Translations under genes and position numbers: made by a program
Notes under the pieces: model-generated
The model's input: the letters and a program-made list of their open reading frames with translations, nothing else
Databases searched by the model: none
Told to the model about the DNA's origin: nothing
Assembly: GCA_922989275.2 (NCBI GenBank)
Contig: OV277871.1
Span: forward strand, 4,960,001 to 5,024,000
Origin: Gari tellinella
Taxonomy: Eukaryota; Mollusca; Bivalvia; Cardiida; Psammobiidae
Reading direction: 5' to 3'
Length of the DNA: 64,000 bases
Shown here: positions 5,125 through 63,899 of the stretch, piece by piece
How positions within the stretch are numbered: position 1 is the first letter of the stretch
Layout of the letters: each line of letters starts with the position of its first letter

Positions 5125-5304
5125 CCCTCACTATTAATTATTAGGGTGTTTACGATAGGTGACCGCTTAAAGCAAGGTGGCAGTGAAACAGAAAGCTCCT
5201 TTAGGAGCTTTCTGTTTCACTGTCACCTTGCTTTTAGCTGTCACCTGTCTATTATAGTATCAATAAGCCTTCGTTTTAGTGGTCGTAATAGCGAGGTTTT
5301 ACTG
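5125..5304. mobile_element. family G hairpin MITE (pogo-like), left end decayed
   Basis: The right end TGGTCGTAATAGCGAGG...TTTTACTG matches the family G terminal repeat; the left end is degraded. The core is a palindrome with arms TTAAAGCAAGGTG...GAAAGCTCC around TTTAGG (about 5168-5238). Confidence 0.6.
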
Positions 5305-5377
5305 TAGTTCCATTTCATACAGCATTCTTCCTCTTACAGTACACCAGATATGTCACAGCTGAAACATAATCATTATA

Positions 5378-5572
5378 CAGTAAAACCTCACTATTACGAC
5401 CATTAAATTCTAGTCTAAATTATTAGGTGTTTACATCAGGTGACTGCTTAAAGCAAGGTGACAGTAAAACAGGAGTTTTCTGTTTTACTGTCATCTTGCT
5501 TTAAACTGTCACCTGTTTTTTATACAATCAATTAGCTTTCATTTTAGTGGTCATAATAGAGAGGTTTTACTG
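5378..5572. mobile_element. family G hairpin MITE, complete
   Basis: A 195-bp element with ends CAGTAAAACCTCACTATTAC and its inverse (GAGAGGTTTTACTG). TTAAAGCAAGGTGACAGTAA opens the hairpin. CAGT ends with TA flanks suggest a Tc1/mariner-pogo type MITE. Confidence 0.8.
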
Positions 5573-5582
5573 AACAACTTAA

Positions 5583-5975
5583 CGCTTTACTCTATAGATA
5601 CACATTTTGGCGCATTTAATTAATTCCTCCACTGAAGAAAACAGTTCCATTCTATACAGTAATGAAAATGTAAGCTTTAACCCTTTACCCCATAGCCTGT
5701 TTCTAGTTTTGAAAATAGGTGACTACTTAAAGCAAGTTGAAAGTAAATCAGAATGTGCCATATGGCGCATTCTGCTTTACTTTCAGTCTGCTTTAAGCTA
5801 TTACCTGCTAGAATAAGGAAAGTATTAAATATAACACATATTCATAAAGGTATATATAGGAACTATTTTCTTCAGCGGATGAATAAAATGCAAGTGCTAA
5901 AAGTCGCTTCTATAACTTATAAGGCAAAGGGTTAAGTGGGCACCTGTCTAGAAAGCGAAACAGGCTATGGAGTAA
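5583..5975. mobile_element. family A MITE shell with a second element replacing its hairpin
   Basis: The left part (CTTTACTCTATAGATACAC...CAGTAATGAAAATGTAAGC) and right part (GTGGGCACCTGTC...GGCTATGGAGTAAAGG) are the two flanks of a family A element. Its own hairpin is missing, and a full family A copy (5677-5935) sits between the two TTAA motifs that normally bound the hairpin. Confidence 0.6.
5677..5935 (-). mobile_element. family A hairpin MITE, nested
   Basis: TTAACCCTTTACCCCATAGC at the left and GGCAAAGGGTTAA at the right, 259 bp, with the hairpin near 5729-5795. TTAA is duplicated on both sides. Confidence 0.75.
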
Positions 5976-9610: not shown

Positions 9611-9615
9611 TTGGC

Positions 9616-14145: not shown

Positions 14146-14161
14146 ACTAGGGTTTAATCGG

Positions 14162-14415
14162 TTAACCCATTACCCCATGGCCAGTTTCTAGTTTTGAAAA
14201 CAAGTTACTACTTAAAGCAGGTTGAAAGTAAAGCAGAATGCAACTCAAGGCACATTCTGCCTGCTATACTTTCAGCCTGCTTTAAGCCATCACCTACACA
14301 AATGTAGAAAATATTTCTTATGATACATAATCATGACTGTATAAATTGGACGTATGTTCTTCAGTGGAGTAATAAAACTGGTGTAAAAAGGCGTATTTAT
14401 GTGGGAATCGGTTAA
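14162..14415 (-). mobile_element. family A hairpin MITE, complete
   Basis: TTAACCCATTACCCCATGG at the left, ...GGGAATCGGTTAA at the right, 254 bp. The hairpin near 14213-14287 has extra bases in its right arm. This reverse orientation has the GTTTCTAGTTTTGAA end on the left. Confidence 0.85.
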
Positions 14416-15018
14416 ATAAAGAACAAGCAAGCCATAATTCTCTTGAAGTTGTGTATTCTCATAGCCAATGTACATGTCTCTGGGTGGAGGACACAGATTG
14501 TATTCCTTTTGTTGTTGTTGTTTTCTTTCACTGTTACAATGCAGTAATAGCTGTAATATATACAGTCTCTTCACAAGAAACATTGACAAAAAAGGTGATT
14601 TTAAAACAGCTGTAATAACCAACTCGAGAATTGTGAAAATACTATAAACAGTTACATGTACATGTATTGTGTAATAGGGTCTGTACCACTCTACAATAAG
14701 TCTTGCTTGTAAATGTTTACACTGTTCCTCTCTATAATAAGTCTTGCTGTAAATGTTTAAACTCAGGGACGCACATACAAATATACGTCCCTGTTACACT
14801 GTACCTCTCAACAATAAGTCTTGCTGTGAATGTGACCACTCCAAAGAACAGTTCTATAAATAGAATTTTCAAAAGTTCTTTTCAAAACAGGGTCAGAGTG
14901 TCAAACAGTTTAGATCCTGATGAGACACCATGTTACGCGGAGTCTCATCAAGATCCAAACTGTTACTGTGGCACATGTATCCACCGCTAGCATGCAAAGA
15001 GTTAAAGCAAATAAATAT

Positions 15019-15195: not shown

Positions 15196-15296
15196 ACAGC
15201 AGAAAGCTCCTGTATGAGCTTTCTGCATTACTTCCATCCTGCTTACAGCAGTATACTGATATAAATGCCAAAACAAGACTTCTACAGTGTAGCCCA

Positions 15297-20066: not shown

Positions 20067-20076
20067 ATGACAAGTT

Positions 20077-25820: not shown

Positions 25821-25838
25821 TATAATGTGGTTCCATTT

Positions 25839-53400: not shown

Positions 53401-56400
53401 CCATGTAGTTCAAACTAAGATACAGTTTTGGCAAAATATTCATGTCAATCTGTCCACGCATTTTGCTATCAATTAAATTTTATTGAGGCCACCAACTGGT
53501 GCTTCGATTGAAGATCGATGCAATATCGTCTTGCCGTAAACGCTTAAACTTCAGTTTGAACATTCAAACATGAATAAGAATGGGTTGTCCATGTAGCTCA
53601 TATTAAAATACAGTTATGGCGAAATTTTCATGTCAATTTGTCCACGCATTTTGCTATAAATTAAATTTTATTGAGGCCACCCACTGGTACTTCGATTGAA
53701 GATCGATGCAATATCGCCTTACCGTAAACGCTTAAACAGCAGTTTGAACATTCAAACATGAATAAGAATGGGTTGTCCATGTAGCTCATATTAAAATACA
53801 GTTATGGCGAAATTTTCATGTCAATTTGTCCACGCATTTTGCTATAAATTAAATTTTATTGAGGCCACCCACTGGTACTTCGATTGAAGATCGATGCAAT
53901 ATCGCCTTGCCGTAAACGCTTAAACAGCAGTTTGAACATTCAAACATGAATAAGAATGGGTTGTCTATGTAGCTCATATTAAGATACAGTTATGGCGAAA
54001 TTTTCATGTCAATCTGTCCACGCATTTTGCTATAAATTAAATTTTCATGAGGCCACCCATGGGTCCATTCACACCTTCGTGCAAACTGCTGTCACTTTTC
54101 ATTGAATCGGCATTTTCCAAACACTAATTAACGTGTGTGCGGTGCACAGAGGGGTTAATTGATGCTCGGACTTTATTCTTATTATTCTTTTGTGTTAAAC
54201 CTCGAAAAAGAGGCTTCTTTAAGGAATGTTTGTATTGTAAAATAACTGTAGACCGTATTAACGCAGCAACTGATAAGTAATTCCAAATATCGACTATTTT
54301 CCCGATCGTCGCTAAAGCTTATATAACTCGCGATGACCTGTTCTCGCGAAATCTCGCTCAACGGTCTCGTATGTATAAATCATTCGAGTCGTGTATCTCT
54401 GGCTTTTAAGTCTCTGATTAATGCAACCATCTTGTTACATGTACAGAATCTTGGTATTATTACGAAGGCAGTCATCTTGTTACATTTACAGAATCTTGAC
54501 AGTATTTACAAATGCAGCCATCTTGTTACACTTACAGACAACTGGTCTTCCACCTGTAGCAGGAAGTCGTCATCATTTGGTCGCTTTATCCAGGATATCA
54601 CAAGATCTGTCACATGTCTCTCACCCAACATTGGTGGGTCAGGCTGGGAGGGGGCTGAACCACTCGTACAAAACGTCACCGCTTCACTGTACTCACTGAA
54701 AACAACAAATACAATACTGAAACACTTTTTGCTCATCTACCGGTATATCGATGGAGGTACATTATTCATTATAATATAAAAACTTGACTTATCTCCTCCT
54801 CTAAGCATGTATGGGTAACAAAACTTTTTTGAAAACAGTGTAGACCCAGATCAGACAGCTCCTAAAGGAGCAATCTGATAAGGGTCTGCCCTATTTCCTT
54901 GTAGGATATGTCATGAATCTGGACTCTTTCCTGGGGAAATTTTTCCTTATTTCATTAGTTGATGTAAAAGTTCAGGTGATAGACAGTGAGCAGAGTTTAA
55001 TGTGAGAATCTGAGAAAGTTTAAGTTTTTAAACAGTTAACTTTGGTTACTCTTGTCTGTTCTGGATCTAGTATGTTTGCAACTCAACTCACAACTCAAGT
55101 GAGAATCTAACCCATTACTCCAAAAATACAACTTTTTATCATACCTATTCATACACTAATAAAATTAGTCCTTACAGCCATGAAGTTCTGTATATGACTT
55201 ATGGATGTTATTTTAAATACTGTTTAAGACAGAAGCTTAAAGCAGGCTGAAAGTTAAGCAGAATGCACCTTAAGGCGCATTCTGCTTAACTTTCAACCTG
55301 CTTTAAGTGGCCACCTGTTATCAAAACTAGAAACAGGCTATGGGGTAATGGGTTAATTTGATGACATAAATACAGCATTCAAAGACTCCTTTCTGTTTCA
55401 GTCTTCTTCTGTTTTTGAAACAGACCCACAATTGGTTTAGTCTACATACCTTTTGCCGGAGTTATTGATTGCGGCTAATCGGAAGGTGTATTTGGTTGAA
55501 GCAGTAAGCTTTGGTATTCTGTATTGTTTCTGTGGGCCATTGTAGACCTCTACATAAGTGCCGGTAGTGTCGCCAGTCTCATACTCCAGGACATAGGCCG
55601 AGATCTTAGAACCATTCTCACACGGAGCCTGCAAGATACAAGAAGATTTATTTAACGTTGGATACAATATAACAGTAAACATTAGCTGTAACAACTTTTT
55701 TCCGACAAACACAATTATAATATAAACAAGAGTAAAAAGGCTGTAAAATAGAAGGACTGTAAAAGAAAGGGTTTACATATACCGTGGCTGCAAGCTAGGC
55801 ATACAAACTATTTAGGTTGTTTTGTTTTTGCAATAAGGGAAAATTAAGGGCTCAAGATAAGCGCGCATCAACCACTTATTTCCAACGCTTTCTCATTAAT
55901 TCAGGGCTTCAGATAAGAGGGAGTAAACTGAACAAATCCAACATTTTCTTGTTCATTTCAGCACCAAATCCTATGGTGTTACTACTCATTAAATCATCTG
56001 ATTAAAAATGATTCTAAAGAGTAGTAACACCATAGGGTTTAATGCAGAAATAAAGAGTTTAGTTTCTGAAATACTCCCCATATCTGGAGCTCTGTTAACC
56101 TTCAACAAATTGTATGCTGTTAACTACTCATTAGAATCATTGCAAAGTGACAATTGTAAAGAGCAGTCACATCACAGGGTTTGGGTGGAGGCATAGGGCT
56201 TTAAGCTTTTGAAAATTGACTCGCCTTATCTGGAGCTCTGTTGTTAGTGTACTGATATACATGTACATGCAAGATCGTATGGGAAAACAAGAGGGACAAT
56301 TAGTGCTAGGATATACATGAAAGATATCAATACAAGGAATGAAAGATATTGCGCAATCAATATAACCCTTTGCTAAATGCTGGACAAAACCACTGGACAA

Positions 56401-59400
56401 AACCCTTTGCTAAATGCTGAACAAAACCCTTTGCTAAATGCTGGACAAAACCCTTTGCTAAATGCTGAACAAAACCCTTTGCTAAATGCTGGACAAAACC
56501 CTTTGCTAAATGCTGGACAAAACCCTTTGCTAAATACTGGACAAAACCCTTTGCTAGATGCTGGACAAAACCCTTTGCTAAATGCTGGACAAAACCCTTT
56601 GCTAAATACTGGACAAAACCCTTTGCTAGATGCTGGACAAAACCCTTTGCTAAATGCTGGACAAAAGCAATGCGGAAAGCTGCTTTTAATTTTCATTACA
56701 TTACTATGTCCCCCATTAATAAGAGTTTTCCATGCTTCTGGTTCAGCTTGTAATATGTTCTGGTTCTTTTTTTCCTGTTTGTTTGTTTTGAATATTACAG
56801 AAAAATATGAGTAAAACAAACCTTGCAGACCCTGATCATAGGGGTCCTTCAGGAGCTCTACAATCAGGGTCTACACTGTTTGAAAAATAAATCGGTACAT
56901 CTACTGGTTTCAAGCAGAGAAAGGAGAAAGCACCCTATATATCGATTACAAACCAAAAATCATGGTGGAAGTATTTAGTCAAAGGTCATCAAGGGTCTAA
57001 CAGCCAAATGGGAGTATTCATGTAATGTCAACCTAGTTTTAAACCACTTCTTTCCATGCTATGTATCCGAAGAAAACATGCTTGTCTTATCCCCCGATAT
57101 TTCTTGATAAAATCTGTTTTAGATGCTTTTTTAAACACTGGCATCAACTTTTAAAATCTCTCTTGCGTAAATATGAAAAACACATGTTCCAAAGAATTTA
57201 GGGTCCTTTTGTAACCCTTTATATGAGAAGGATTTCTTTTACCAAAAATTGTGCACAATGTAAACATAGATCATGTGACTCCTGTGAACGGTTTGTTATT
57301 TCAGATACTATTTAGCATTACAAAATGTATTTCTTGACAAATGATGCAAAATTTATTATTGACATAATGAGGAAAGATGTGAAAATACAGCTTTATATTG
57401 GTAAATAACCCTGATAAAATCTAGCCAGATTTCAGCCCACTGCATCAGTTTACAATCTGATTTGCACAAAAGCCATCACCACTAATGGGACTTTTCCTTA
57501 ACTCTTTGCATGCCGGGTAATTGTTTTGGTCTGAAACAATTGTCGTCTGCTACTGTTCTAAAATTAGCATTTTCAAAATTTCTTTTAAATTGAGGGACAG
57601 AATGGCAAACAGTTTGGATCCTGATGAGATGCAGCGTTACGCTGCGTCTCATCTGGATCTGTATTGTTTGCAAAGGTAATCACTGTCCGCCACTAGCATT
57701 CAGAGTTAATGCATTGTAAATCAAACTTAATGCTTTCTGCCTAATGTTAACGTTTTACTCAACAACATGTTTCTGGTATTGAAGATAGGTGACCACTTAA
57801 AGCAGGTTGAAAGTAAAGCAGATGACCACTTAAAACAAGTTGAAAGTAAAGCAGATGATCACTTAAAGCAGGTTGAAAGTAAAGCAGAATGTGCCTTAAG
57901 GCACATTCTGCTTTACTTTCAGCCAGCTTTAAGCTTCCATTTATTAGCATTTACAAAATATTTTTTATGGTGCTTATTCATGACTGTAGAAATTGGAACT
58001 TGTTGTTTCAGTGGAGGAATAAATTAAAAGCGTAAAAATGTTCATCTATGAAGCAATGGGTTAAACCCATTTTGCGTAACCAATCGATAGGTGATGCATG
58101 GTCAAAGACAAATGCATCGTTGGTCAATAAGATAAGTGGCAGCAGGACAAACAGTAATCCAGGAAGCTCCTTTAAGAGCTTTCTGCAATATCTTTGACCC
58201 CTGCATTAAGCAGCTCATGGCTTGTATTTCCTACACAGATTTACAGGATTGTCAATTAAACATTTATCTCATAGCCTGTTTCTAGTTCTGGAGACAGGTA
58301 GCTGATCAAAGCAGGTTAAAGTAAAGCATAATGCTCATAAAGGAACTTTCTTTAACCCATTACCGCATAACCTGTTTCTAGTTTTGAAGACATGTGACCA
58401 CTTAAAGCAGGTTTAAAGTAAAGCAGAATGTGCCTTAAGGCACATTCTGCTTTACTTTCAGCCTGCTTTAAGCTTCAATCCACTAGAATATACAAAATAT
58501 TTCTTATGGTTCATATTCATGACTGTTTAAAATTGAACTATTTTTTTTAATTGAAGAATAAATTAAAGGCGTATAAAGGCGTATTTATGGGGTAATGGGT
58601 TAAGCTACCATCTTAAAAGACACTGGAAATGCCTTCTATGTTTTACATGCGAGTACTTCCTACATGTAGGTACTACTTTTCCTTAGTGTAGAAATAATCA
58701 GAGGCATAAAAAGGTGTATTTATGGAGTAATGGGTTAAGCTAGTGGTACACAAAGGTGAGACAGTCAATAGGCGTGTTTATATATTTATTATATTTATCT
58801 GTATGCCTGGTTATAACTGAATTCATCAACTGTGACTATCAGTTTGTAAGATTTTATCACTAACTGCATGCCTGCATCGCCTGTTTTCAGAAAATACATG
58901 CACATGCAAGTTCGAACTAAGACTCACTTCCAGCGCTAAGTGTGTAAGTTATTGAGATTTCAACAACTAAACCTTTCCCCTTATTGTATTCCTTGTTTAA
59001 AGCAGACTGTAAATAAAGCAGCAATTGTTGCTTTACTTTCATCCTGCTTTAAAAAGTTTTTAGCATGTTCATATGTTTCTTTAGACTTTCGATGCATACA
59101 CCACAGATGATTTGAAAGTTCTGCAGGCAACAACTTGAAACCCTACAATATTTCAGTAATATTAGTGTTTGAAAGATCTTTGCAAAAAACTAACGCAAAA
59201 AATAAGATTCTGAGCTTTTTTCGGAAGAAGTGTGCACTTTTGTGTATAAGTAGGTTAACCCATATTGGAAGGGGGCCTAGTACATGTACATGTATATTAA
59301 TCCATTGCAAACAGTTCAGACCCTAATCAGAGGGTTCCGAAACTTTCAAATAGTTTTATGACAACTCCATCAAGACTTTATGTGAACTGGTAATTTATCA

Positions 59401-62400
59401 GAAAATTGAAGAGTCAGTTTAAGACTTCAGAATTTTAAGGGTTAAAGAAGTAAAGTTCAGTTTTTATTGGTTACAAAAACTTACATTAATTGCTGTAAGC
59501 TTCCCAGATGTATTTTCTTAATTGAATTAGACAATATCTGACTAAGGGGCTAGATACAGTGAGCCTGGTGTCTAGCTGCCACTCAAAAAAGGGATTCCAG
59601 TGTATAGTCTTGACCCATTACGTCATAGATACACCGTTAACCCTTTTGTAACCCCCTGGAACCTCAAATGGACAATTCTAGTTTTCAATTTAGTCCAGTC
59701 CATTTTTTACTTTTTACGGTTGATTTTTACAATATATGTCAATATGGCAAACAGTGTAGACCCTGATCAGAGGACAAGCATACTCCTCACAGGTAGGCTG
59801 TTTGCAAATGATGCATATATGCGTGACTAGGGTTCACAGAGTTAATTCATTCATTCACTACAGAAAATACTTCCACTTTATACAGTCATATGAATATGTG
59901 CCGTAAGAAATATTTTCTATATATATCCTAGCAGATGGTAGCTTAAAGCAGAATGCACCTTTAGGAAGACACATTCAGGGCCTCATGATCAGAAAAGGGG
60001 AGCATTTAGAAAACTAAAATCTGTATGTCTACATAAAACCCTATGGTGTGACTACTCATTAGAATCATTTCATCCAGTCTGAAAGCGACAATGTTGGATT
60101 TGTTCAGTTTACTCCCTCTTACACGGAATGCTGGTTAAAGACTTTATGAGCTGAAGCACTATAAGATTATTGTGCACGCTTGATTTTTACAGCTTCATAT
60201 CAATATGATTCTTCTTTGAAAATCAATCTTCCACAGAGTATTTCCATATGTACTTATCTCTTACCCTGCTAGCGGCGGATATATCTGCCACAGTAATTAC
60301 ATTTGTGAACAGATTGGATCCAGATGAGATGCCGTGTAACCCAGCATCTCATCAGCATATAATACAAACTGTTCGACACTCTAACCCTGTTTTTAAAATA
60401 AATTTAGAAAATTCTACTTTTAGAAAAGTAGCAGATGACAATTGTTGCAGACGGAAAAAATTACCCAGCATGCAAAGAGATAATCCTACCAATACTTAGC
60501 CCTTATCATGCAGAATTTGAATACAGATTCTTTTGATCTGGAAAATGACGTATTTATACAAACATTTGCCGGTTGTATTCAAAAGTGTAACAAACAGCGC
60601 AGACCCTAATCTGGTCTCCTTTAGGAGCAGTCTGATCAGGGTCTACACTGTTTGCAAAGGATGTACATGTACATGTATTATATTGTTTCTATCTTCAGTT
60701 AATAAAAGCTATTTGCTTCAAATGTGCTCTCTACTAAAAAAAAATATCATCCTATAACCAACTTCTGAAACTACAATCAAGCTGACAATTAGTTTGGATC
60801 CAAATCAGATGTCAAGTTACTTGGCATCTGATCTGGATTCAAACTGTTTGCAAAAAAATCGCAATCACTCTAACTTACATTCCACTTAAGGGCGAGTGAG
60901 GTTTTATTTTTCTGTTGCAGTTTTGGGGCTTGAGGTTGTTCTGGTTCACACTGAGTTGTTTTAAAGCTGATCGCCTCCGTTGGTGTCCCCCTCAGATCAT
61001 CCAGTATTGTACAAACCCTGTAAACATAACAAAATACATTAACCCATTACCCCATAAATACACCTTTTTTAGCCTTTAATTTATTCCTCTACTGAAGAAA
61101 ATTGTTCCATTTTATACAGTCATGAGTATATTTCTTAAGAAATATTTTCTTTATCCTAGCAGATTAAAGTTTAAAGCAGGTTGGAAGTAAAGCAGAATGC
61201 ACCTTAACTCTTTCCTCCCTGAAACTTTAAACGGACAATTCCAGTTTCCATTTAATTCTCGTCCATTTCTGACTTTAAGGGTTGTTTTTGTCAATGTTTG
61301 GCATTATGACAAACAGTGAACACCCTGATCAGAGGGCTCCTTAGGAGCCCTCTGATCTGGGTCTTCACCGTTTGCATAGGACAAGTGTACTATTTACATG
61401 TTCACTGTTTGCAAAGGACGCCAATATGCGGGACTAGGGTTCAAAAGGTTAAGGCGCATTCTGCTTTACTTTCAACTTGCTTTAATTGGTCACATGTCTT
61501 CAACACTAGAAACAGGTTATGGGACAATGGGTTAATCCATTACTCCATACTCGTCATAAACAAAACTTGTTCCCTCGAAGAGTACCTTTGTCCTATGTCA
61601 ACAGCGTAGACCCTGCAGGACCCCCCTGATCAGCTCTGATCAGGGTCTACACTGTTTGTCATTTTGCAATTTATTGTTTAAATTAACCCTTTGTAGTCAG
61701 AAGTTAACTATGCCTAAATGGAAATTGGAATTGTCTATTAAAAGTTTCAGGGGTGAATGAGTTAAGAAATAATAAATTCATATAAGTGTTTTATCGTGCA
61801 ATCTAACACGGGTAGTCGTTGAAATGCTTGTAATTAGGTCACTTGGCCTACGGCCTCGTGATTAAATTACTATGCAAGTCACCTCCTACCCGTGTTGGAT
61901 TTGCACGATAAAACACTGGTATGAATTTATTATTTCAATTCTAACACTTCAATTTAACCACAATTTGCACCGATGCAAGGGCGCTTCATTTCTTGGGGTA
62001 TGCATTTTCGAAGCCATATAACGTCAGTAATGGCACATTTTAGTCGTTACAGCGCATGCGTGTTTTATTGAGAATTCAAACACAGTTGCTTCCTTTTTTG
62101 TTTATATAAGGGTGTGCGCGAGTTGTGTTTGAATTAAATATTACGCAAAAAAAAGATCTGAAACAATATGATATACTTACTTCAAATAATATTCTGTTGC
62201 AGGCTTCAGATCTTTTAATGTTATTTCTGTTGCGTCCCCACTGAAATCAAAGAAGAGAATGAGAGTATAATACCTGTGGGCTAATTCTGTTATACAGTGA
62301 AGACGCGCTATTGTCACCACTCAAATACAGCCTCATTGTCAGTTTTTGCTTGGCCTTGATGAAAGAAAGCAAGCCAGACAGACAATAAGGTATCAATGGA

Positions 62401-63144
62401 GGCCATGCCATTCTTTTTTTTATTTAACTACAACATTGCACGTTTGTTTTAACCCTTTCCCCGATGGAAGCGCCTTTTAGCGCATATAATTTATTCCTTC
62501 ACTGAAGAAAATAGGTCCAATTTAATAAGTCATGAATATGTATAAAAAGAAGAATTTTCCATATTCTAGCAGATTGAAGCTTAAAGCAGGCTGAAAGTAA
62601 AGCAGAATGCGCCTTAAGGCTTTACTTTCAACCTACTTTAAGTGGTCACCTTTCTTCAATACTAGAAATATGCTAAGGGGTAAAGGGTTAATAATATTGT
62701 ATACCTTCATTTAACCCATTACTCCATAAATTTGCTTTTTTACACCTTTTATTTATTCCTCCATTGAAGAAAATAGTTCCAATTCAAACAGCCATGAATA
62801 TGTATCATCAGAAATACTTTCTATATCCTAGCAGATGGTAGCTTAAAGCAGGCTGAAAGTAAAGCAAGATGCGCCTTCAATGCGCATTCTGCTTTACTTT
62901 CAACCTGCTTTAAAGTGGTCACCTGTCTTCAAACTAGAAACATGCTATTGGGTAATGGGTTAAAAATGGCAAAACAAACTGCTCTTTCTTCCTACCTATA
63001 TACAAGTTTATATTTGCCGTCCCTGCCCTTTTCACACAAAAGCAGCTCATAGTTGAACTCTGCCGGACTGATAATGTATTCCTTGGCGTCTAGTTCAGGG
63101 GGAGATAATTGAATCAGGGCACTCCGTGACTCTATGTCCGTTAC
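32105..63144 (-). CDS. FNDC3: FNDC3-family protein (FNDC3A/FNDC3B-like), partial, 17 exons
   Basis: Coding segments on the minus strand, in order: 63144-62996, 62240-62181, 61017-60879, 55628-55450, 54695-54536, 52105-52019, 49232-49094, 48618-48553, 43870-43758, 41263-41158, 39507-39335, 38128-37937, 37569-37238, 35107-34907, 33741-33575, 33027-32903, 32446-32105. They total 2730 nt, 909 codons plus TGA; every junction is GT-AG and every phase matches. The protein has nine fibronectin III domains (roughly residues 1-92, 93-186, 189-280, 281-377, 378-471, 473-568, 570-656, 658-748, 755-849) and one membrane helix near 873-896 with a 13-residue tail, as in vertebrate FNDC3A/B, tail-anchored proteins reported at ER/Golgi membranes and implicated in cell adhesion. 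Repeated EVYKG/VYNG, YxFRVxA and WxPPxDxGG motifs mark the domains. The family is usually about 1200 residues, so the N-terminal proline-rich part lies beyond the right edge. A versus B cannot be assigned. Confidence 0.93.
32467..32880 (+). mobile_element. family A MITE with an internal ~75-bp duplication, FNDC3 last intron
   Basis: TTAATCCATTACTCCGTAAA to GGCTATGGAGTAAAGGGATAA. The arm has a segment repeated about twice (TTTGTGGAGATTC, CATATACTTATT, TTCAGTAAAACTGCT). Its end lies 22 bp from the exon p donor. Confidence 0.75.
32903..33027 (-). CDS. FNDC3: FNDC3 exon p: FN3 domain 9, first half
   Basis: Encodes (A)PKIDHLKLTSCSIDWQSVRP, then GEDRIIYQLQLQCRDHEYKQ. The APKI start after PPPALR is a FNDC3 signature. 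TATTTCAG acceptor, CAG|GTACAG donor, phase 0 out. Confidence 0.9.
33165..33547. mobile_element. family D MITE split by family A
   Basis: AACAGTGTAGACCCTGATCA-GAGGGCTCC at the left and GGAGCCCTCTGATCAGGGTC at the right are the two hairpin arms. Between them, at the loop TTAA, sits 33205-33448. The right end is TAGGGTTGAAAGTGTTAA. Confidence 0.8.
33205..33448 (+). mobile_element. family A MITE inserted in the loop of family D
   Basis: TTAATCCATAAATATGCC to CAGGCTATGAGGTAATGATTTAA. TTAA at both junctions. Confidence 0.85.
33575..33741 (-). CDS. FNDC3: FNDC3 exon o: FN3 domain 8
   Basis: Encodes (N)FQEVYKGQAFTCKVNRLTE, FRIYASNDAGSGPYSE and TFTTTKAPPPAL. The acceptor CTTCAG|TTTCC is the one that keeps phase; the internal TTCCAG seven bases on would not. 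Donor GG|GTAATT, phase 1 out. Confidence 0.9.
33789..34036 (+). mobile_element. family A hairpin MITE
   Basis: TTAACCCATTACTCCATAAA to CAGGCTATAATGGGCTAA. The stem is imperfect. Confidence 0.75.
34332..34530 (+). mobile_element. family A MITE with right stem arm mostly deleted
   Basis: TTAACCCGTTACCCTATAAA, then AGCAGGCTGTAAGTAAAGCA-GAATGTGCC-TTAAGGC-AACCTGCTTTAA. About 25 bases of the returning arm are missing. Confidence 0.7.
34673..34865. mobile_element. family F hairpin MITE, complete
   Basis: CAGAGCTCCAGATAAGAGGG to CTTTATCTGGAGCCCTG, 193 bp, ATCAC-like flanks on both sides. Ends 41 bp before the exon n donor. Confidence 0.88.
34907..35107 (-). CDS. FNDC3: FNDC3 exon n: end of FN3 7, start of FN3 8
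   Basis: Encodes RARIQAMNGIGVGAFSSPVK, then LPPSPPKLECYG and IKLKWGEGRN. The LKWGEG block is conserved in FNDC3A. CTCTAG acceptor, AA|GTAAGT donor, phase 2 in and out. Confidence 0.92.
35161..35278. repeat. perfect 40-bp inverted repeat
   Basis: The left arm 35161-35200 begins CAGTTTCTTCACAGTG and the right arm 35239-35278 is its exact inverse. The 38-bp loop contains GTTGCCCGAGCCGTTAC. In FNDC3 intron 13. Confidence 0.85.
35288..35748. mobile_element. non-autonomous element with perfect 18-bp terminal inverted repeats
   Basis: TTTATTATACTGCAAAGT at the left and its exact inverse at 35731-35748, 461 bp. It contains CRE/GC-like motifs (AACGTCATGTCGTCACG) and an internal hairpin TGTACCCTGTCAGC-TCACAGGGTACA. 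No coding frame of note. Confidence 0.65.
36260..36502 (+). mobile_element. family A hairpin MITE, left TTAA mutated
   Basis: TTCACCCATTACCCCATAAA to CTATGGGGTTATGGGTTAA. Confidence 0.82.
36523..36756 (-). mobile_element. family D MITE
   Basis: TTAACCCCTAGAATCCTAGT to TTTGAGGGAAGAAAGGGTTAA. Hairpin GACCCAGATCAGAGGAT...CTGATCAGGGTC. Confidence 0.8.
36834..36904. repeat. family D-type hairpin
   Basis: AACAGTGTATACCCTGATCA-GACTGAACCTGAGTGAGCATTC-TGATCAGGGTATACACTGTT. Confidence 0.7.
37028..37215. mobile_element. family F hairpin MITE
   Basis: CAGAGCTCCAGATAAGGATA to TCTTATCTGGAGCCCT. The core TTAGAATCGTCACGAAGAGACGATTC carries one extra base in a stem. Ends 22 bp from the exon m donor. Confidence 0.85.
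37238..37569 (-). CDS. FNDC3: FNDC3 exon m: end of FN3 6, most of FN3 7
   Basis: A 332-nt exon, second in length only to the terminal one. Encodes LYYGPNTSYEVRGLNPATSY, FRVQAINSAGAG and VATCLTPPSSP ending domain 6, then SVLLQWREPHDNGSEI and YNIDIGG of domain 7 to PETTY. TTTTCAG acceptor, AG|GTAAAA donor, phase 2 out. Confidence 0.93.
37656..37920. mobile_element. chimera of half a family F and half a family D element
   Basis: CAGGGCTCCAGATAAGAGGG...CTATGGTGTTACTACTCA is the left half of F. It switches at 37740 to a D hairpin GTCCCTGATCAGAGGGCTCC-TGCA-GGAGCCC... and a D right end TTTCAGGGGATAATGAGTTAA. Confidence 0.7.
37937..38128 (-). CDS. FNDC3: FNDC3 exon l: end of FN3 5, start of FN3 6
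   Basis: Encodes GGPWSEPLEVVSGAGVPDPP, then KMPVCTCRSAHSALVTWEGP and YRLEWQLQ, 64 codons in phase 0. Acceptor GACAATAG (weak pyrimidine tract), donor CAG|GTACTA. The CRSA and TDYRLEW blocks match FNDC3 domain 6. Confidence 0.88.
38147..38302. repeat. 32-bp minisatellite, about 5 copies
   Basis: The unit is ATTGTAAACAGTATTCTTGA followed by TCCAATAAATAC. The array starts 18 bp after the exon l acceptor. Confidence 0.9.
38306..38445 (-). mobile_element. family A copy, broken
   Basis: TTAACCCATTTCTCCATAGC, then a hairpin with deletions and TATTTCTTATTAATTGAC. A second family A right part is at 38823-38943, so the segment between (38450-38815, with recurring ACGTAT/CTTATA motifs) may be an insertion. 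Confidence 0.55.
38944..39273. mobile_element. family H MITE (pogo-like) split by a TTAA element
   Basis: CAGTCAAACTTTGATTTCTC at the left and GATATCGATGTTCAACTG at the right. The core AAAACATTGCATAGTCACGTTTTAAC is palindromic. Flanked by TA. Confidence 0.75.
39105..39245. mobile_element. 141-bp TTAA element nested in family H
   Basis: TTAACCCATTAACTCATAAG to AGTATGGCTTAATGGGTTAA, inserted at CGGC-TTAA-CCGAG. Short, no hairpin; AAAATGAGTTAGTATG and AAAATGAGTCAGTATG repeat inside. Confidence 0.75.
39335..39507 (-). CDS. FNDC3: FNDC3 exon k: FN3 domain 5
   Basis: Encodes (S)YPEYNGGAQVNEFAVQM, then SKEVYKGRDLDCIVAGLSPG and LFQVRALNRIG. TTTTATAG acceptor, GGG|GTAAGT donor, phase 0 out. A clear FN3 core with the EVYKG motif. 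Confidence 0.92.
39538..39693. mobile_element. family H MITE, complete
   Basis: CAGTCAAACTTCGATATCTC to GAGTTCAAGATATCGAAG plus TTGGACAG. Core GTTAAAACGTGGCTAAGCCA-CGTTTTAAC. Begins 31 bp from the exon k acceptor. Confidence 0.85.
39825..40018. mobile_element. family F hairpin MITE with a 5-bp target duplication
   Basis: CAGGGCTCCCGATAAGAGGG to CATTATCTCGAGCTCTG, 194 bp. TTCAC is present directly on both sides (39820-39824 and 40019-40023). Confidence 0.88.
40150..40360. mobile_element. family E hairpin MITE
   Basis: GCGGTGAAACCATGATTACC, hairpin AAACAGTTTGGATCCAGATG-AGATGCCGCATTATGCGGCGTCTC..., then AACAACTGTTGCA. Confidence 0.7.
40361..40580 (+). repeat. Helitron-like 3' end fragment
   Basis: GCCATGGCAAC, GTTTCAGTGAAGAAG, a GACGG run and a terminal hairpin AGCTCACCTTGAGCTC...TGAGCTAAAAA, as at 13660-13714. 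Confidence 0.65.
40642..41103. mobile_element. family G MITE split by family A
   Basis: CAGTAAAACCTCTCTATCAC at the left, GTCGTAATAGAGAGGGTTGACTG at the right. The insertion is at the far stem-base TTAA (TTGCT-TTAA...GCTGCCATG). Confidence 0.85.
40778..41035 (+). mobile_element. family A MITE inserted at the second stem-base TTAA of family G
   Basis: TTAACCCATTACCCAATAAA to GGTTATAGGGTAATAGGTTAG. The right target copy has mutated from TTAA to TTAG. Confidence 0.85.
41158..41263 (-). CDS. FNDC3: FNDC3 exon j: FN3 4/5 boundary
   Basis: Encodes MSEVCVATTQGVPPGQCSAP, then KLQGKPKATLLHLRW, closing domain 4 and opening domain 5. The acceptor ACATGCAG|ATG gives phase 0; a nearby TGTCAG would break the frame. 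The donor is GGT|GTAAGT; using the alternative GTGTAA two bases earlier would also break it. Confidence 0.88.
41310..41558 (+). mobile_element. family A hairpin MITE, complete
   Basis: TTAACCCATTACTCCATAAA to CGGCTATGGAGTAATGGATTAA. Confidence 0.85.
41645..41887 (+). mobile_element. family A hairpin MITE, right tip lost
   Basis: TTAACCCATTACCCTTTAAA to AACAGGCTATGGGGTAATG. Both stem arms are intact. Confidence 0.8.
42028..42392. mobile_element. family I MITE (pogo-like) with an E-type hairpin
   Basis: CATCGCTCCCTCAGTACAAC at the left and GTTGTAGAGAGGGAGCACTG at the right. The core hairpin AACAGCTTGAATCCAGACCA-TACGCCG... pairs with CGGCGTCTGATCTGGATTCA. Confidence 0.75.
42733..43050 (+). mobile_element. 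family A MITE with ~60-bp internal insertion
   Basis: TTAACCCATTACCCCGTAAA to CTATGGGGTAATGGGTTAA. An extra segment TTATTATACCAGATTTATTT...GAAAAGCACTTATAAG lies at 42833-42898. Confidence 0.85.
43055..43247. mobile_element. family F hairpin MITE, complete
   Basis: CAGGGATCCAGATAAGAGGG to CCTTATCCGGAACCCTG, adjacent to the previous family A element. Confidence 0.88.
43452..43710 (+). mobile_element. family A hairpin MITE, complete
   Basis: TTAACCCATAACCTCATAAA to GGGTATGGGGTAATGGGTTAA. Ends 47 bp from the exon i donor. Confidence 0.9.
43758..43870 (-). CDS. FNDC3: FNDC3 exon i: FN3 domain 4, second half
   Basis: Encodes YETMYEGSDREHTCDRLQPG, then TYHVRVAAVSAGGRSE. The REHxCDRLxPG block is characteristic of FNDC3. 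ATTGCAG acceptor, GAG|GTACAT donor, phase 1 in and 0 out. Confidence 0.92.
43992..44216. mobile_element. family E hairpin MITE, complete
   Basis: TTAACTCTTTGCATGCTAGT to CAGCATGCAAAGAGTTCA. Hairpin AATAGTTTGGATCCAGTTGA-GACGCCGC...GCAGCGTCTCATCAGGATCC. Confidence 0.85.
44480..44636. mobile_element. family A copy lacking its hairpin
   Basis: TTAACCCATTACCCCAATAA to GAGGGAAAGGGTTCA, 157 bp; arms only. The two ends look like the same terminal type, so it may be a deletion product. Confidence 0.65.
44983..45173. mobile_element. family E copy with deleted right stem
   Basis: TTAACTCTTTGCATGCTAGC to CAGCATGAAATGAGTTAA. AACAGTTTGGATCCTGATGA-GACCC remains but the returning arm is gone. Confidence 0.8.
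45325..45660. mobile_element. hairpin element split in its right arm by family A
   Basis: TTAAAGCAGACTGAAAGTAA...GGGAGCTTTCTGCTTTACT at the left; GCCTGCTTTAAGTAACCACC at the right. Confidence 0.7.
45381..45632 (-). mobile_element. family A hairpin MITE, nested
   Basis: 252 bp, TTAACCCTTTACCTAATAGC to GTATCAGGGAAAGGGTTAA, with TTAA on both sides of the split stem arm. Confidence 0.88.
45924..46116. mobile_element. family F hairpin MITE, complete
   Basis: CAGGGCTCCAGATAAGAGGG to CCTTATCTGGAGCTCTG. Stem TCATTAGAATCGTCTCT-TTGAG-ACG... Confidence 0.88.
46119..46352 (-). mobile_element. family A hairpin MITE, left TTAA lost
   Basis: CATTACCCCATAGCCTGTTT to TATGGGGTAATGGGTTAA, directly next to family F. 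Confidence 0.85.
46520..47040 (-). mobile_element. family A copy interrupted by family F
   Basis: CCTTTACCCCGTAGCATGTT and its hairpin lie at the left. The far end (GACTGTATAAAGTTGAACTA...GGGGTTATGGGTCAA) resumes after the F element at 46736-46928. Confidence 0.65.
46736..46928. mobile_element. family F hairpin MITE, target ATAAAT
   Basis: CAGAGCTCCATATAAGGGGA to CTTATCTGGAGCCCTG. ATAAAT immediately flanks both ends. Confidence 0.88.
47379..47874. mobile_element. family F MITE split by family I; TAAAC target duplication
   Basis: CAGGGCTTCAGATAAAGGGG at the left and TCTAATCTGGAGCCCTG at the right. TAAAC lies directly outside both ends. Confidence 0.85.
47402..47700. mobile_element. family I MITE inserted at TA of family F
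   Basis: CAGTGCTCCCTCCCTACAAC to its inverse GTTGTAGAGAGGGAGCACTG, with TA on both sides where unsplit F elements have a single TA (GGGGAGTATTTC). Confidence 0.88.
48178..48552 (-). mobile_element. family A copy in reverse, split at its stem base and running to the exon h donor
   Basis: CTTTCCGTTATAGTTTGTTT and hairpin AGCAGGCAGAAAGTAAAGCA...AGTCTGCTTCA at the left. After the nested copy, GCTACCATCTGGTAGGATAT-AGGAAATATTTGTAC reaches the FNDC3 exon boundary. Confidence 0.65.
48269..48517 (+). mobile_element. family A hairpin MITE, nested
   Basis: TTCAACCCATTACCCCATAA to GGCTATTGGGTAAAGGGTTAA. The right target copy is TTAA; the left has decayed to TTCAA. Confidence 0.85.
48553..48618 (-). CDS. 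FNDC3: FNDC3 exon h: 66-nt exon of FN3 domain 4
   Basis: Encodes (D)PPRDDGGSEITKYIVELDDG, the W-x-P-P-x-D-x-GG strand of domain 4. TTTGCAG acceptor. The donor is G|GTACAAATATTT, and the intron from about its fifth base matches a family A transposon read in reverse. Confidence 0.9.
48747..48997 (+). mobile_element. family A hairpin MITE, decayed ends
   Basis: GTTAGCCCTTTCCCCCATAG to CTACAAACAGGCTATGG. The stem is interrupted (extra GCTAAAGGCCCA). Confidence 0.75.
49094..49232 (-). CDS. FNDC3: FNDC3 exon g: end of FN3 3, start of FN3 4
   Basis: Encodes LAAKNDEGSSKWSEILSCRT (end of domain 3) and then PEPPGKPQIKGKVHAHVFRV, opening domain 4. GTTGAACAG acceptor; GTAGGT donor after one base of a split Asp codon. 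Confidence 0.92.
49293..49485. mobile_element. family H MITE, complete
   Basis: CAGTCGAACTTTGATATCTC to GAGATATCGAAGTTCGACTG, 193 bp, TA on both sides, stem GTTAAAACGTTGC... Confidence 0.88.
49606..49987. mobile_element. truncated family H fused to a family A copy
   Basis: CAGTTGAACTTAACTA...GTTAAAACGTGGCTAAGTCA-CGTTTTAAC, then at about 49735 family A (ACTCTTTACCCTATAGCTTG) to GGGGGGATGGGTTGAA. Confidence 0.7.
50170..50389. mobile_element. family E hairpin MITE, complete
   Basis: TTAACTCAATTATCACCCTA to CAGCATGCAAAGAGTATG. The stem TTTTGGATCCTGATGAGACG-CCGCGTAACGCGG-CGTCTC... is nearly perfect. Confidence 0.85.
50530..50840. repeat. family D remnants
   Basis: ATCAGATGGTTTCCTAAAGG-AGCCCTC and, to the right, ACAAGTGCATTCTTCACAAG plus CTAAAGTTCAAAGGATTAA. 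Confidence 0.55.
50953..51157. mobile_element. family G hairpin MITE, complete
   Basis: CAGTAAAACCTCTCTATTAC to GTCGTAATAGAGAGGTTTTA. Stem TTAAAGCAAGGTGAATGTAA...CCTAAAGG loop. Confidence 0.88.
51393..51592. mobile_element. family G hairpin MITE, complete
   Basis: CAGTAAAACCTCTCTATTGC to GTTATAGAGATTTTTTTACTG, TA on both sides, 200 bp. Confidence 0.85.
52019..52105 (-). CDS. FNDC3: FNDC3 exon f: FN3 domain 3
   Basis: An 87-nt, 29-codon exon, phase 0 in and out, encoding GHGFIPVYNG followed by YRIGHLQKNTEYKFR. ATTTTCAG acceptor and AGG|GTAAGT donor. GYGF-x-P-x-YxG is a recognisable FNDC3 block. Confidence 0.9.
52134..52327. mobile_element. family F hairpin MITE
   Basis: CATGGCTCCATGGATAAGGG to CTTATCTGGAGACCTG. 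Starts 29 bp from the exon f acceptor. Confidence 0.85.
52530..52625. repeat. family D-type hairpin remnant
   Basis: AACAGTTTAGACCCTAATCA-GACAGC...CTGATCTGGGTTTTGATTTG. Confidence 0.5.
52695..52835 (-). repeat. possible tRNA-derived SINE remnant
   Basis: Read on the minus strand, the segment ends in GGTCATGATTTTGATCCCTG, resembling a decayed internal B box. TGGTCCAGTCATAATGCGCT upstream of it resembles an A-box region. No foldable intact tRNA. Confidence 0.3.
53001..54416. mobile_element. 1.4-kb DNA transposon with 31-bp perfect TIRs and an internal satellite
   Basis: CAGAGACTTAAAAGCCAGAG+ATACACGACTC at 53001-53031 and its exact inverse at 54386-54416, with ATTAATG duplicated outside both ends (52994-53000 and 54417-54423). 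Inside is a tandem array of about 188-bp units (53319, 53510, 53697, 53885). No transposase frame, so it is non-autonomous. Architecture resembles bivalve elements of the Pearl/BIV160 kind; that link is inference. Confidence 0.85.
53319..54060. repeat. 188-bp tandem repeat, four units
   Basis: Unit landmarks: GAAGATCGATGCAATATCGC, CCGTAAACGCTTAAAC, CATGAATAAGAATGGGTTGT, CATGTCAATTTGTCCACGCA and TTTATTGAGGCCACCCACTG. The middle two are nearly identical. Confidence 0.9.
54536..54695 (-). CDS. FNDC3: FNDC3 exon e: FN3 2/3 boundary
   Basis: Encodes (S)EYSEAVTFCTSGSAPSQP, ending domain 2, then the first strands of domain 3 through LLQVEDQLS. TTTTCAG acceptor; donor TCT|GTAAGTG. The donor lies at the edge of a 45-bp minisatellite whose other copies carry donor-like sequences. 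Confidence 0.9.
54832..54900. repeat. family D-type hairpin
   Basis: AACAGTGTAGACCCAGATCA-GACAGCTCCTAAAGGAGCAATC-TGATAAGGGTCTGCC. Confidence 0.65.
55107..55356 (+). mobile_element. family A hairpin MITE, complete
   Basis: CTAACCCATTACTCCAAAAA to CTATGGGGTAATGGGTTAA. Stem with GTTAAGCAGAATGCACC-TTAA-GGCGC. Confidence 0.88.
55450..55628 (-). CDS. FNDC3: FNDC3 exon d: FN3 domain 2
   Basis: Encodes APCENGSKISAYVLEYETG, then YVEVYNGPQKQYRIPKL and KYTFRLAAINNSGK, a nearly complete second half of FN3 domain 2. CTTGCAG acceptor and GTATGT donor, phase 2 out. The NGSKI and GPQKQ blocks are conserved in vertebrate FNDC3. Confidence 0.92.
55902..56094. mobile_element. family F hairpin MITE
   Basis: CAGGGCTTCAGATAAGAGGG to CATATCTGGAGCTCTG. 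A related decayed copy follows (56100-56240: TACTCATTAGAATCATTGC...). Confidence 0.85.
56365..56664. repeat. 24-bp minisatellite, about 12 copies
   Basis: The unit is AAAACCCTTTGCTAAATGCT followed by GGAC, with a few point variants (GAAC, AATACT, AGATGCT). The 24-base period keeps frames open on both strands as 8-residue repeats (GQNPLLNA on plus, SKGFCPAF on minus). Confidence 0.95.
56821..56885. repeat. family D-type hairpin
   Basis: GCAGACCCTGATCATAGGGG-TCCTTCAGGAGC-TCTACAATCAGGGTCTAC. Confidence 0.6.
57498..57709. mobile_element. family E hairpin MITE, complete
   Basis: TTAACTCTTTGCATGCCGGG to CACTAGCATTCAGAGTTAA. Stem AAACAGTTTGGATCCTGATG-AGATGCAGCGTTACGCTGC... Confidence 0.88.
57750..58064 (-). 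mobile_element. family A MITE with its left stem arm tripled
   Basis: The 36-bp segment GACCACTTAAAGCAGGTTGA-AAGTAAAGCAGAT occurs three times in a row before a single returning arm. The right end is AGCAATGGGTTAA. Confidence 0.85.
58258..58738 (-). mobile_element. family A copy split by a second family A copy
   Basis: TATCTCATAGCCTGTTTCTA and a short hairpin arm at the left; GCTACCATCTTAAAAG and TATTTATGGAGTAATGGGTTAA at the right. Confidence 0.75.
58352..58603 (-). mobile_element. family A hairpin MITE, nested, complete
   Basis: 252 bp, TTAACCCATTACCGCATAAC to GGGGTAATGGGTTAA, TTAA on both sides. Confidence 0.9.
58740..59600. other. mostly unassigned intron sequence
   Basis: Contains one short hairpin (AGCAGACTGTAAATAAAGCA-GCAATTG-TTGCTTTACTTTCATCCTGC, 58999-59052) and a fragment of family D (59305-59340). 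No exon. Confidence 0.5.
59610..59965 (+). mobile_element. family A copy split by family D and truncated by family F
   Basis: CCATTACGTCATAGATACAC at the left; TTCATTCATTCACTACAGAA...GGTAGCTTAAAGCAGAATGC at the right, where it runs into family F (about 59970-60133). Confidence 0.65.
59637..59845 (+). mobile_element. family D MITE nested in the arm of family A
   Basis: TTAACCCTTTTGTAACCCCC to GACTAGGGTTCACAGAGTTAA. The right stem arm is missing. Confidence 0.8.
60262..60483. mobile_element. family E hairpin MITE
   Basis: TTACCCTGCTAGCGGCGGAT to CAGCATGCAAAGAGATAA. Stem GATTGGATCCAGATGAGATG-CCG... Confidence 0.75.
60590..60660. repeat. family D-type hairpin
   Basis: AACAGCGCAGACCCTAATCT-GGTCTCCTTTAGGAGCAG-TCTGATCAGGGTCTACACTG. 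Confidence 0.65.
60783..60852. repeat. family E-type hairpin near the exon c donor
   Basis: AGTTTGGATCCAAATCAGAT-GTCAAGTTACTTGGC-ATCTGATCTGGATTCAAACT, ending 26 bp before the donor. Confidence 0.7.
60879..61017 (-). CDS. FNDC3: FNDC3 exon c: end of FN3 1, start of FN3 2
   Basis: Encodes VCTILDDLRGTPTEA, the last strand of domain 1 including a KGTPSEA-like block typical of the family, then EPEQPQAPKL and SLALKW opening domain 2. TTTACAG acceptor, GTAAGT donor, phase 0 out. Confidence 0.9.
61039..61535 (+). mobile_element. family A MITE with family D inserted exactly in its loop
   Basis: TTAACCCATTACCCCATAAA to GGTTATGGGACAATGGGTTAA. Stem arms GTAAAGCAGAATGCACC and GGCGCATTCTGCTTTAC are separated by the D copy. 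Confidence 0.9.
61204..61452 (+). mobile_element. family D hairpin MITE, nested, complete
   Basis: 249 bp, TTAACTCTTTCCTCCCTGAA to GACTAGGGTTCAAAAGGTTAA. Own stem CCCTGATCAGAGGGCTCC-TTA-GGAGCCC... Confidence 0.92.
61586..61764. mobile_element. family D MITE, left end lost
   Basis: AACAGCGTAGACCCTGCAGG...CTGATCAGGGTCTACACTGT, then GTTTCAGGGGTGAATGAGTTAA. Confidence 0.7.
61766..61936. repeat. 50-bp-arm palindrome (foldback element)
   Basis: GAAATAATAAATTCATATAA-GTGTTTTATCGTGCAATC...CACGGGTAG pairs with CTACCCGTGTTGG...CACTGGTATGAATTTATTATTTC. The loop holds GGCCTACGGCC. GC content and loop differ from every other family here. Confidence 0.8.
62181..62240 (-). CDS. FNDC3: FNDC3 exon b: FN3 domain 1, middle
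   Basis: A 60-nt exon between a GATTTCAG acceptor and a GTAAGT donor. It encodes GDATEITLKDLKPATEYYLK, the standard L-x-P-x-T-x-Y core of a fibronectin III domain. Phases 2 in, 2 out. Confidence 0.9.
62449..62691 (+). mobile_element. family A hairpin MITE, GCGCC-end subtype
   Basis: TTAACCCTTTCCCCGATGGA to TAAGGGGTAAAGGGTTAA. About 13 bp of the right arm (GCGCATTCTGC) is deleted. Confidence 0.85.
62711..62963 (+). mobile_element. family A hairpin MITE, complete
   Basis: TTAACCCATTACTCCATAAA to GCTATTGGGTAATGGGTTAA, 253 bp. Ends 32 bp from the exon a donor. Confidence 0.9.
62996..63144 (-). CDS. FNDC3: FNDC3 exon a: start of FN3 domain 1
   Basis: Begins in phase 0 after a TTCCAG acceptor with VTDIESRSALIQLSPP, the first strand of FN3 domain 1, and ends in phase 2 at AG|GTAGG. 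It encodes KYKLVY, which continues as SGDATEI in the next exon. It is the most 5' exon visible; nothing exon-like was found between it and 64000. Confidence 0.9.
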
Positions 63145-63284
63145 CTGGAACAAACACAAAATATGGATGTCAATCACAGAAAATGTTAATTATTTGCCAT
63201 AGGACATTTAATTTTAACATGTGTGAACTTTTCATCTACAGTTAGAAGTATTAATCGTCTATATCCAATTGTGTTTAAACAATT

Positions 63285-63445
63285 TCCTCCAAGAAACTTC
63301 AAATTCACAATTCTAGTTTCCCTGGTCAGAGGACTCCTTTAGGAGCCCTCTAATCTGGGTCTTCACTATTTGCATAAGAAAAGTGTACTCTTCACAGGTA
63401 CACTGTTTCTAAAGGATGCATTTATGTGACTAGGTTTCAAAGATT
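63285..63445 (+). mobile_element. family D MITE, decayed ends
   Basis: TTTCCTCCAAGAAACTTCAA, stem GGTCAGAGGACTCC-TTTAGG-AGCCCTCTAATC, then GTGACTAGGTTTCAAAG. A G-like hairpin (AAAGCTCCTTTAAGAGCTTT) follows at 63470-63530. Confidence 0.65.
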
Positions 63446-63720
63446 TTAGGAAGTATAGTGCTTATTTAAGCAAGATGAAAGTAAAGCAGAAAGCTCCTTT
63501 AAGAGCTTTCTTCTGTACTGCCATCTTTCTTTCAGCTGCCAAATACATTGAACAGCATAATATAGATAAAATGGAAAACATGTCAAATAGTGCTTATGCA
63601 GAGGTTCCATGGGCAACTTTCTGCATTCCTGTTGAACTGCATTAAGCTACTGAGTATCAATAATCATACAAGTTTACATTTGATAAAACAAAGCTAGGCT
63701 TACAGCTTCAGCTGCAATAC

Positions 63721-63899
63721 CTGGGCACCAGATAAGGGGAGTATTTCAAAAACTAAAATCTTTATTTCTGCATTAAACCCTATGGTGTTACTACTCTTCG
63801 AGACGATTCTAATGAGTAGTAGCACCATAGGATTTGGTGCTGAAATGAGTGAGAAAATGTTGGAGATGTTCAGTTAACTCCCCATTATCTGGAGCCCTG
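63721..63899. mobile_element. family F hairpin MITE with CAATAC target duplication
   Basis: CTGGGCACCAGATAAGGGGA to CATTATCTGGAGCCCTG. CAATAC lies at 63715-63720 and 63900-63905. Part of the left core arm (CATTAGAATCG) is deleted. Confidence 0.85.

Follow-up and report, generated by a model that had tools for sequence, protein, structure and literature searches.

The piggyBac MITEs mPok1 and mPok2 of Pokey in Daphnia are short TTAA elements with tips similar to those of an autonomous piggyBac of the same genome (PMC4912750), and CCCTT, CCCAT, CCCTC and CACTA are described as piggyBac tip motifs found with TTAA (PMC10813416). Kolobok elements also have TTAA as their target, with 5'-RR termini beside it (PMC9587614, PMC6004289), and the Kolobok T2-MITEs of Xenopus reach high copy number with AG or RR termini (PMC6004289). 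A published MITE that adopted and amplified a foreign module is MER6; the chimeric mariner MITE MER6/MER6A carries a SINE V domain (PMC6887750).

The window analysed here is a stretch of 64,000 bases (C16:4960001-5024000) in a genome of 1.6 Gb and 80 contigs. Its commonest element, family A, is like mPok1 and mPok2 a short TTAA element with tips similar to those of an autonomous piggyBac of its own genome. It differs from them (PMC4912750) in its near-perfect central hairpin, which a TA-target family carries as well. Like MER6, it is non-autonomous and would have amplified a module of an unrelated transposon; in MER6 a TA element carries a SINE domain as its module (PMC6887750), whereas here a palindrome is common to TTAA elements, TA elements and a piggyBac. 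TTAA target and high copy number are features in common with the Xenopus T2-MITEs (PMC6004289), but the AG or RR termini are absent from A. No description of a core common to a TTAA and a TA MITE was found in the open-licence PMC papers; passages of two of them, on bivalve transposons (PMC10294476) and on hAT MITEs in cod (PMC12368964), have no bearing on the core.

MITE families of the window

A strict palindrome scan of the window gave 71 near-perfect palindromes, whereas two Markov controls yielded 0 each. Of the 71, 51 contain a core of type A, G or D. Consensus sequences served to delimit six MITE families: A (252 bp), D (250 bp), D' (225 bp), G (210 bp), F (193 bp) and H (163 bp). They comprise 157 segments and cover 24,132 of the 64,000 bases (Table 1). 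A, D and D' have TTAA ends, G and H have CAGT tips at TA, and F has a 6-bp target duplication. All six are short and non-coding, with inverted ends and many copies, near-full copies of H and D' being few. The preliminary description had reported many hairpin MITE families, and these counts agree with it. Its figure of at least seven comes down to six delimited families, with E and I not set apart. Two more foldbacks are readings by eye only: a simple one at 27488-27640 with CCAAGG-type ends, beside an A/G-type core whose flanks match no family, and a long one at 61771-61930 (AAATAATAAATTCATA...TATGAATTTATTATTT), outside the delimited families.

The same six families occupy 31,149 of 200,000 bases in twenty 10-kb stretches elsewhere in the genome, taken at round coordinates of our choice. 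Thus the window is rich in these elements, yet the families are widespread. The sample holds 30 near-full A copies, from which a crude extrapolation gives approximately 240,000 genome-wide.

A single design of spacer arms around a central hairpin had been proposed for all families. The hairpins were found as described, but the arms are of two kinds. G and H are palindromic along their arms (arm similarity reached in 0 of 2000 shuffles). Outside the core and tips, no similarity between the arms was seen for A (1590 of 2000 shuffles), D (1031) and D' (749); the value for F, 223 of 2000, places it with neither kind. Given the asymmetric arms of A and D, the hairpin in these two families looks like a module placed within an asymmetric element.

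No transposase was found among the 20 window ORFs scanned with Pfam, as the preliminary description had stated for the window. Scanning the window with Rfam at the gathering threshold and for tRNAs returned 0 hits, and pattern scans of viral contigs and genome contigs gave 0 matches. Exons with fibronectin type III (fn3) domains are scattered on the minus strand over 32108-55772, and so the bulk of the window is probably intronic. Three of the scanned ORFs match Pfam fn3, one of them under the curated cut-off. When one fn3 exon was compared with solved structures, titin ranked first and FNDC3A fifth; we infer that the gene carrying these exons is FNDC3-like. A protein search with an fn3 exon gave 16 matches, all without a name or loosely named. 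By eye, 32108-32473 reads as a probable transmembrane tail. A tandem repeat lies at 56360-56870, and its frames give GQNPLLNA and FVQHLAK repeats.

Table 1. Elements and composite structures located in the window (window positions).
Type	Position	Strand	Remarks
A	5677..5935	-	
A	14162..14415	-	
A	17004..17255	-	
A	17909..18148	+	
A	19361..19612	-	nested within another A
A	21376..21621	+	TTAA in common with A at 21618
A	21618..21881	-	adjoins A at 21376
A	22167..22418	-	
A	24402..24654	+	
A	24700..24943	+	
A	25839..26091	+	piggyBac-type; tips CCCTTTCCCACATAGAAGCG and CCCTTTCCCACATAGCC, each best match to PB1 tips
A	27883..28125	+	adjoins A at 28122 via shared TTAA
A	28122..28379	-	adjoins A at 27883
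A	29512..29752	+	old copy, 74% to consensus; G-like hairpin centre (GGAGC, TTTA)
A	29978..30229	+	
A	30503..30753	+	
A	33789..34037	+	
A	36261..36502	+	
A	41310..41558	+	
A	41645..41888	+	
A	43452..43710	+	
A	45381..45632	-	inside core of A/G-type element
A	46120..46352	-	
A	48271..48517	+	nested within another A
A	48746..49007	+	
A	49736..49986	-	
A	55108..55356	+	
A	58352..58603	-	inside core of another A
A	61039..61535	+	split at central TTAA by D (61204-61452)
A	62449..62691	+	
A	62711..62963	+	
D	15297..15547	-	TTAA
D	17434..17679	+	
D	20533..20782	+	nested within D
D	20821..21085	+	
D	26389..26643	+	nested within A
D	33170..33547	+	left arm not detected; split at central TTAA by A (33205-33448)
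D	36523..36756	-	
D	59637..59845	+	
D'	43992..44214	-	core D-like; left arm without significant similarity to D
D'	44983..45173	-	
D'	60254..60483	-	
G	5376..5574	-	CAGT tips; core module in common with A
G	15018..15196	-	old, 64% to consensus
G	25421..25822	.	interrupted by A (25488-25688) at core-arm TTAA
G	28781..28977	-	
G	40640..41105	.	interrupted by A (40778-41034) at core-arm TTAA
G	50951..51159	+	
G	51391..51594	-	old, 71% to consensus
H	39534..39697	+	CAGTCAAACTTCGATATCTCG tips, TA
F	18527..18726	-	ends decayed
F	29087..29284	-	CAGGGCTCC tips
F	34673..34865	+	
F	37028..37216	-	
F	39825..40018	+	
F	43055..43247	+	
F	45924..46116	+	
F	46736..46928	-	exact 6-bp duplication ATAAAT
F	52134..52327	-	
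F	55902..56094	+	
F	63721..63899	-	exact 6-bp duplication CAATAC
Core chimera	19638..19723	.	A core outer arm joined to inner D core
TTAA-ended hybrid	31625..31901	.	A-like tips around a left end (CAGTAATG..) and core of G type, with the G right arm truncated; candidate core-capture trace

Family A and the autonomous piggyBac PB1

Family A is present in the window as 68 segments, of which 33 are near full length, and both core arms are found in 42 elements. Among arm matches that reach the model tip, a selection that favours TTAA-bearing copies because the models end in TTAA, an exact TTAA stands at 34/41 left and 32/39 right tips; the density of TTAA is 0.0113 per position. It is followed by CCCAT or CCCTT at 32/41 left and 31/39 right tips. 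TTAA target duplication, as in piggyBac, is seen both in these tip counts and in the empty sites of nested copies, which are restored across TTAA, and the 5' tip motif is of the CCC type. The earlier reading of A as inserting at TTAA with piggyBac-type tips is thus borne out.

The same change in both core arms at CpG positions was found in 13/42 A elements (permuted mean 5.5, 0 of 5000). At non-CpG core positions there was no clear excess of symmetric changes (4 compared with 1.96; 648 of 5000). Because the CpG changes follow subfamilies and the other positions are without clear excess, we make no claim of correction between arms.

The genome search listed 86 piggyBac transposase matches. One element, PB1, measures 4,379 bp from TTAA to TTAA and has two copies, on C3 and C4, which are 98.8% alike over a 4,394-column alignment and have different flanks. 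Its open frame of 499 or 500 aa matches PF13843 (E 7e-100) and, among solved structures, piggyBat and piggyBac-type transposases (E 1e-47 and 2e-41). On C4, PB1 lies within an A element, at its core-arm TTAA. A D-like TTAA element at 944-1144 of the PB1 locus L001 lies inside PB1, and the true left end of PB1 is further out. Such an element of approximately 200 bp, next to the transposase gene, occurs in two piggyBac lineages (L001:944-1144 and L031:1657-1855). A second piggyBac, at L003, L005 and L006, has uninterrupted frames of 616-633 aa and tips TTAACCCTTTCGGCGCCA.

The tips of PB1 are TTAACCCTTTCCCACATAGCC (left) and TTAACCCTTTCCCACATGGAAGCG (right). Either A end consensus can be aligned with the right end of the L001 copy (1 of 500 shuffles in both cases). 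When the window tips with intact TTAA were compared with PB1, 30/32 A right tips were nearer the PB1 left tip, with 1 nearer the right and 1 tie; 14/34 A left tips were nearer the PB1 right tip, with 7 nearer the left and 13 ties. The tip polarity is clear for one end and weak for the other. In a comparison of consensus tips, the score of the A right tip against the PB1 left end was equalled by 2 of 200 Markov sequences, and that of the A left tip against the PB1 right end by 20 of 200, which is not significant. The left-end link to PB1 therefore depends on a single subfamily. Of the A left tips, the one that scores best by 22-position count, at 25839, agrees with the PB1 right tip at 32/37 positions; it was compared among 14 tips preselected for starting TTAACCCTTTCC, and past those letters it agrees at 20/25. 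PB1 thus combines a transposase with tips similar to those of A, the left-tip match being weak at consensus level. As the tips resemble the PB1 ends, we conclude that family A is a non-autonomous relative of PB1, whose enzyme probably supplies the A transposase.

A palindromic core common to A and G

The consensus cores of A and G form a palindrome of approximately 96 bp in which 40/48 and 35/44 positions are identical, counted from the centre along each arm. Beyond the core, 13 (11 with the other G arm) and 7 of the next 30 positions are identical, and the ends of the two families are unrelated. Compared over a 34-bp core arm, the two families score 22 (z 11-14, 0 of 300 shuffles). The copy-by-copy similarity profile drops to background past the module. 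The claim that one core occurs across different ends therefore holds for A and G. Among the six families, the only other core-sharing pair is D and D', both with TTAA; D, F and H have no detectable core in common with A or G.

Inside PB1 the A/G module occurs twice, in diverged copies that are 79% alike. For the first copy, 0 of 200 Markov sequences equalled the A score on one strand and 2 of 200 on the other; the G score was equalled by 1 and 0 of 200. For the second, the figures are 0 and 1 of 300 (G) and 5 of 300 (A). The related piggyBac L031 has a stretch similar to the module. The sequences around the PB1 core copies resemble neither the arms of G (minimum over 8 tests 30 of 200) nor the spacer of A (85 and 148 of 200), and PB1 thus offers no direct evidence that a G was inserted there. 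The outer limits of the module (CAGGTGAC..GTCACCTG) are alike in PB1, A, G and 20/143 core loci whose flanks match no family.

Core type follows end type. At five diagnostic positions, 0/89 window half-cores with an identified A or G end carry three or more of the other type, 23 further window half-cores without an identified end standing outside the 89. In the 200-kb sample, core type agrees with the end in 41/42 paired cores with an identified end. Core trees group A and G apart, with weak support from few columns. In a core tree with SH-aLRT values of 84-92 and a midpoint root for drawing only, the core at 31625 and two old G cores fall between young G and A. Since core types follow ends, we read the core sharing as an old capture. 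Of the modular cores first proposed, what stands is one core common to differently ended families, and what does not is free exchange. The comparison of end and core trees suggested in the preliminary description shows nearly complete agreement inside each family; at the deeper level, between A and G, the agreement breaks down.

Two single-copy hybrids combine parts of A and G. In the element at 31625-31901, shuffle tests relate the right end to the A left end (1/1000) and the left tip to the A right end (4/1000), while the left arm and the start of the right arm further in are related to G (0/1000 and 3/1000). The second hybrid, L027:8432-8704, is bounded by a CAGT end and, opposite to it, an A end. 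Both look like traces of capture.

Families D and D'

An exact TTAA stands at 10/11 and 12/13 D tips (arm matches reaching the tip). The left tips begin with CTCAT, CCCTT or CTCTT, the right tips are more varied, and the hairpin centres vary as well. D and D' have the outer part of the core in common and similar right ends. Between the left arm of A and the right arm of D there is a single weak match (4 of 300). No partner of D was noticed among 12 piggyBac loci fetched, several of which were read short of both ends, and the loci read contained no autonomous parent of D, D' or F. A protein search with the frame through the D core gave no candidate. D-type cores in TGATCNGGNTCNAAACTGTTTG style (14899-14964 and others) differ in their inner centres and flanks. 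The D-type core at 54833 reads by eye as NSVDPDQTAP in one frame. SVDPDQ-type peptides are found in mollusc junk proteins; no mention of such strings was found in the open-licence PMC papers.

Families G, H and F

Long-TIR palindromic MITEs of the Tc1-mariner and pogo type have CAGT tips and a TA target and are palindromic to the centre. G and H resemble them, and the centre of G is additionally found in a piggyBac-type MITE. G has both the TA target duplication and the CAGT tips, TA adjoining 12/15 of its tips (arm matches reaching the tip). The G tips (CAGTAAAACCTC) were absent from the eight DDE_1 loci read (L036-L043), out of 150 matches listed, which are 150 of 486 candidates scored. A partner of H was found at L038, where a DDE_1 (pogo) open frame of 555 aa lies with H-like tips at 309 and 3102 and with pieces 77-93% alike to H.

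Family F has a 6-bp target duplication. The match at this length is 0.70, compared with 0.33 in mismatched pairs, and other lengths are near the control; the count uses 10/11 near-complete copies, the one with decayed ends (18527-18726) being left out. An 8-bp target duplication is typical of hAT elements. F does not show it, the match at 8 bp being 0.33 against 0.35 in the control.

Nesting

Joining the flanks of each TTAA element and checking for a host restored across TTAA showed that 10/44 in the window lie inside another family member; two further pairs adjoin at a shared TTAA. Two of the ten are at a central TTAA: at 33205 an A interrupts a D, and at 61204 a D interrupts an A. This reciprocal nesting had been noted before, and both cases are exact TTAA insertions whose joined flanks restore the host. 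In the window, 380/722 TTAA sites (53%) are in MITE sequence; in the 200-kb sample, 1/28 TTAA elements is nested and 421/2111 TTAA sites are inside MITEs. The nested counts are lower bounds, as decayed hosts escape the test, and present TTAA sites are only an approximation of those available when the elements inserted. No excess of nesting is seen, since the nested share is below the share of TTAA sites in MITEs in both window and sample. The A consensus has TTAA at both ends, at the hairpin centre and in each core arm, and TTAA is the commonest hairpin centre (20/42 A cores), so mutual nesting is expected from the sites themselves. A special attraction of insertions to hairpins was also considered. 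Seven of the 10 nested elements lie in host cores, but 3/4 internal A and 2/5 G consensus TTAA sites are in the core, and with sites so concentrated no special attraction is needed. Mutual insertion had been taken as a system-like signal. The counts speak against it: nesting is a matter of TTAA targets in a MITE-dense genome, and no system is needed.

Proposed origin of family A

We consider it likely that the window holds ordinary cut-and-paste MITEs with at least three kinds of target (TTAA, TA and 6-bp), that A is a relative of PB1 and that a G-type core was captured once, long ago. The hairpin of A is separate from its tips: this module of approximately 96 bp is also central to G, the CAGT/TA (pogo-like) family, and persists in degenerate form in PB1. 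A G-type palindrome would have sat within a piggyBac-ended element, and a deletion that retained the piggyBac tips and the palindrome and dropped the G tips would have founded A. A and G would have diverged afterwards, leaving few hybrids, and the PB1 transposase would move A. The hybrids and the old A copy with a G-like centre fit a single old capture, in which a piggyBac-ended element took up a G-type palindrome and gave rise to A.

The core might instead be mobile or selected by itself, having been inserted independently in PB1, G and others, with A inheriting it from piggyBac. We regard this as possible but doubtful. The largely similar module with its like outer limits in PB1, A, G and the 20 loci, the pair of copies in PB1 and the similar stretch in L031 speak for it; no target duplication was demonstrated around a bare module, though, and the 20 loci, diverged in most cases, may be decayed remains of A or G. 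A related idea, which we think unlikely, is that the core is a portable hairpin domain comparable to SINE central domains, taken up by piggyBac, TTAA and TA MITEs and aiding their amplification. It is improbable that the window represents a living modular system with constant exchange of hairpin cores between families. The two hybrids and the A/D core chimera at 19638-19723 speak for such exchange, but the half-cores and paired cores follow their ends, the A cores cluster together, and D, F and H are without a detectable A/G core.

Membership of the TTAA families in Kolobok, which had been thought possible, is very improbable. TTAA is the Kolobok target too (PMC6004289, PMC9587614), but the A tips are mostly CCCAT or CCCTT where Kolobok has 5'-RR, and an intact piggyBac bears similar tips. 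Hardly any weight can be given to a likeness of the A and G cores by chance or by convergence of simple hairpins. Both are AT-rich palindromes, and the arms of one palindrome are not independent. Against this stand the core-arm score, which no shuffle reached, the fall of the copy-by-copy profile to background outside the module, and the finding that only D and D' are otherwise similar.

The birth of MITE families is seldom visible. Under the capture reading of family A, one genome here contains the tips, the shared core, a likely helper that is still intact, hybrids and a candidate intermediate, which makes this a testable case of a transposon family founded through the capture of a hairpin from a different kind of transposon. 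If the portable-domain reading were true, one hairpin would drive MITE bursts under several transposases. The elements also lend themselves to the question of whether amplification is aided by a central hairpin.
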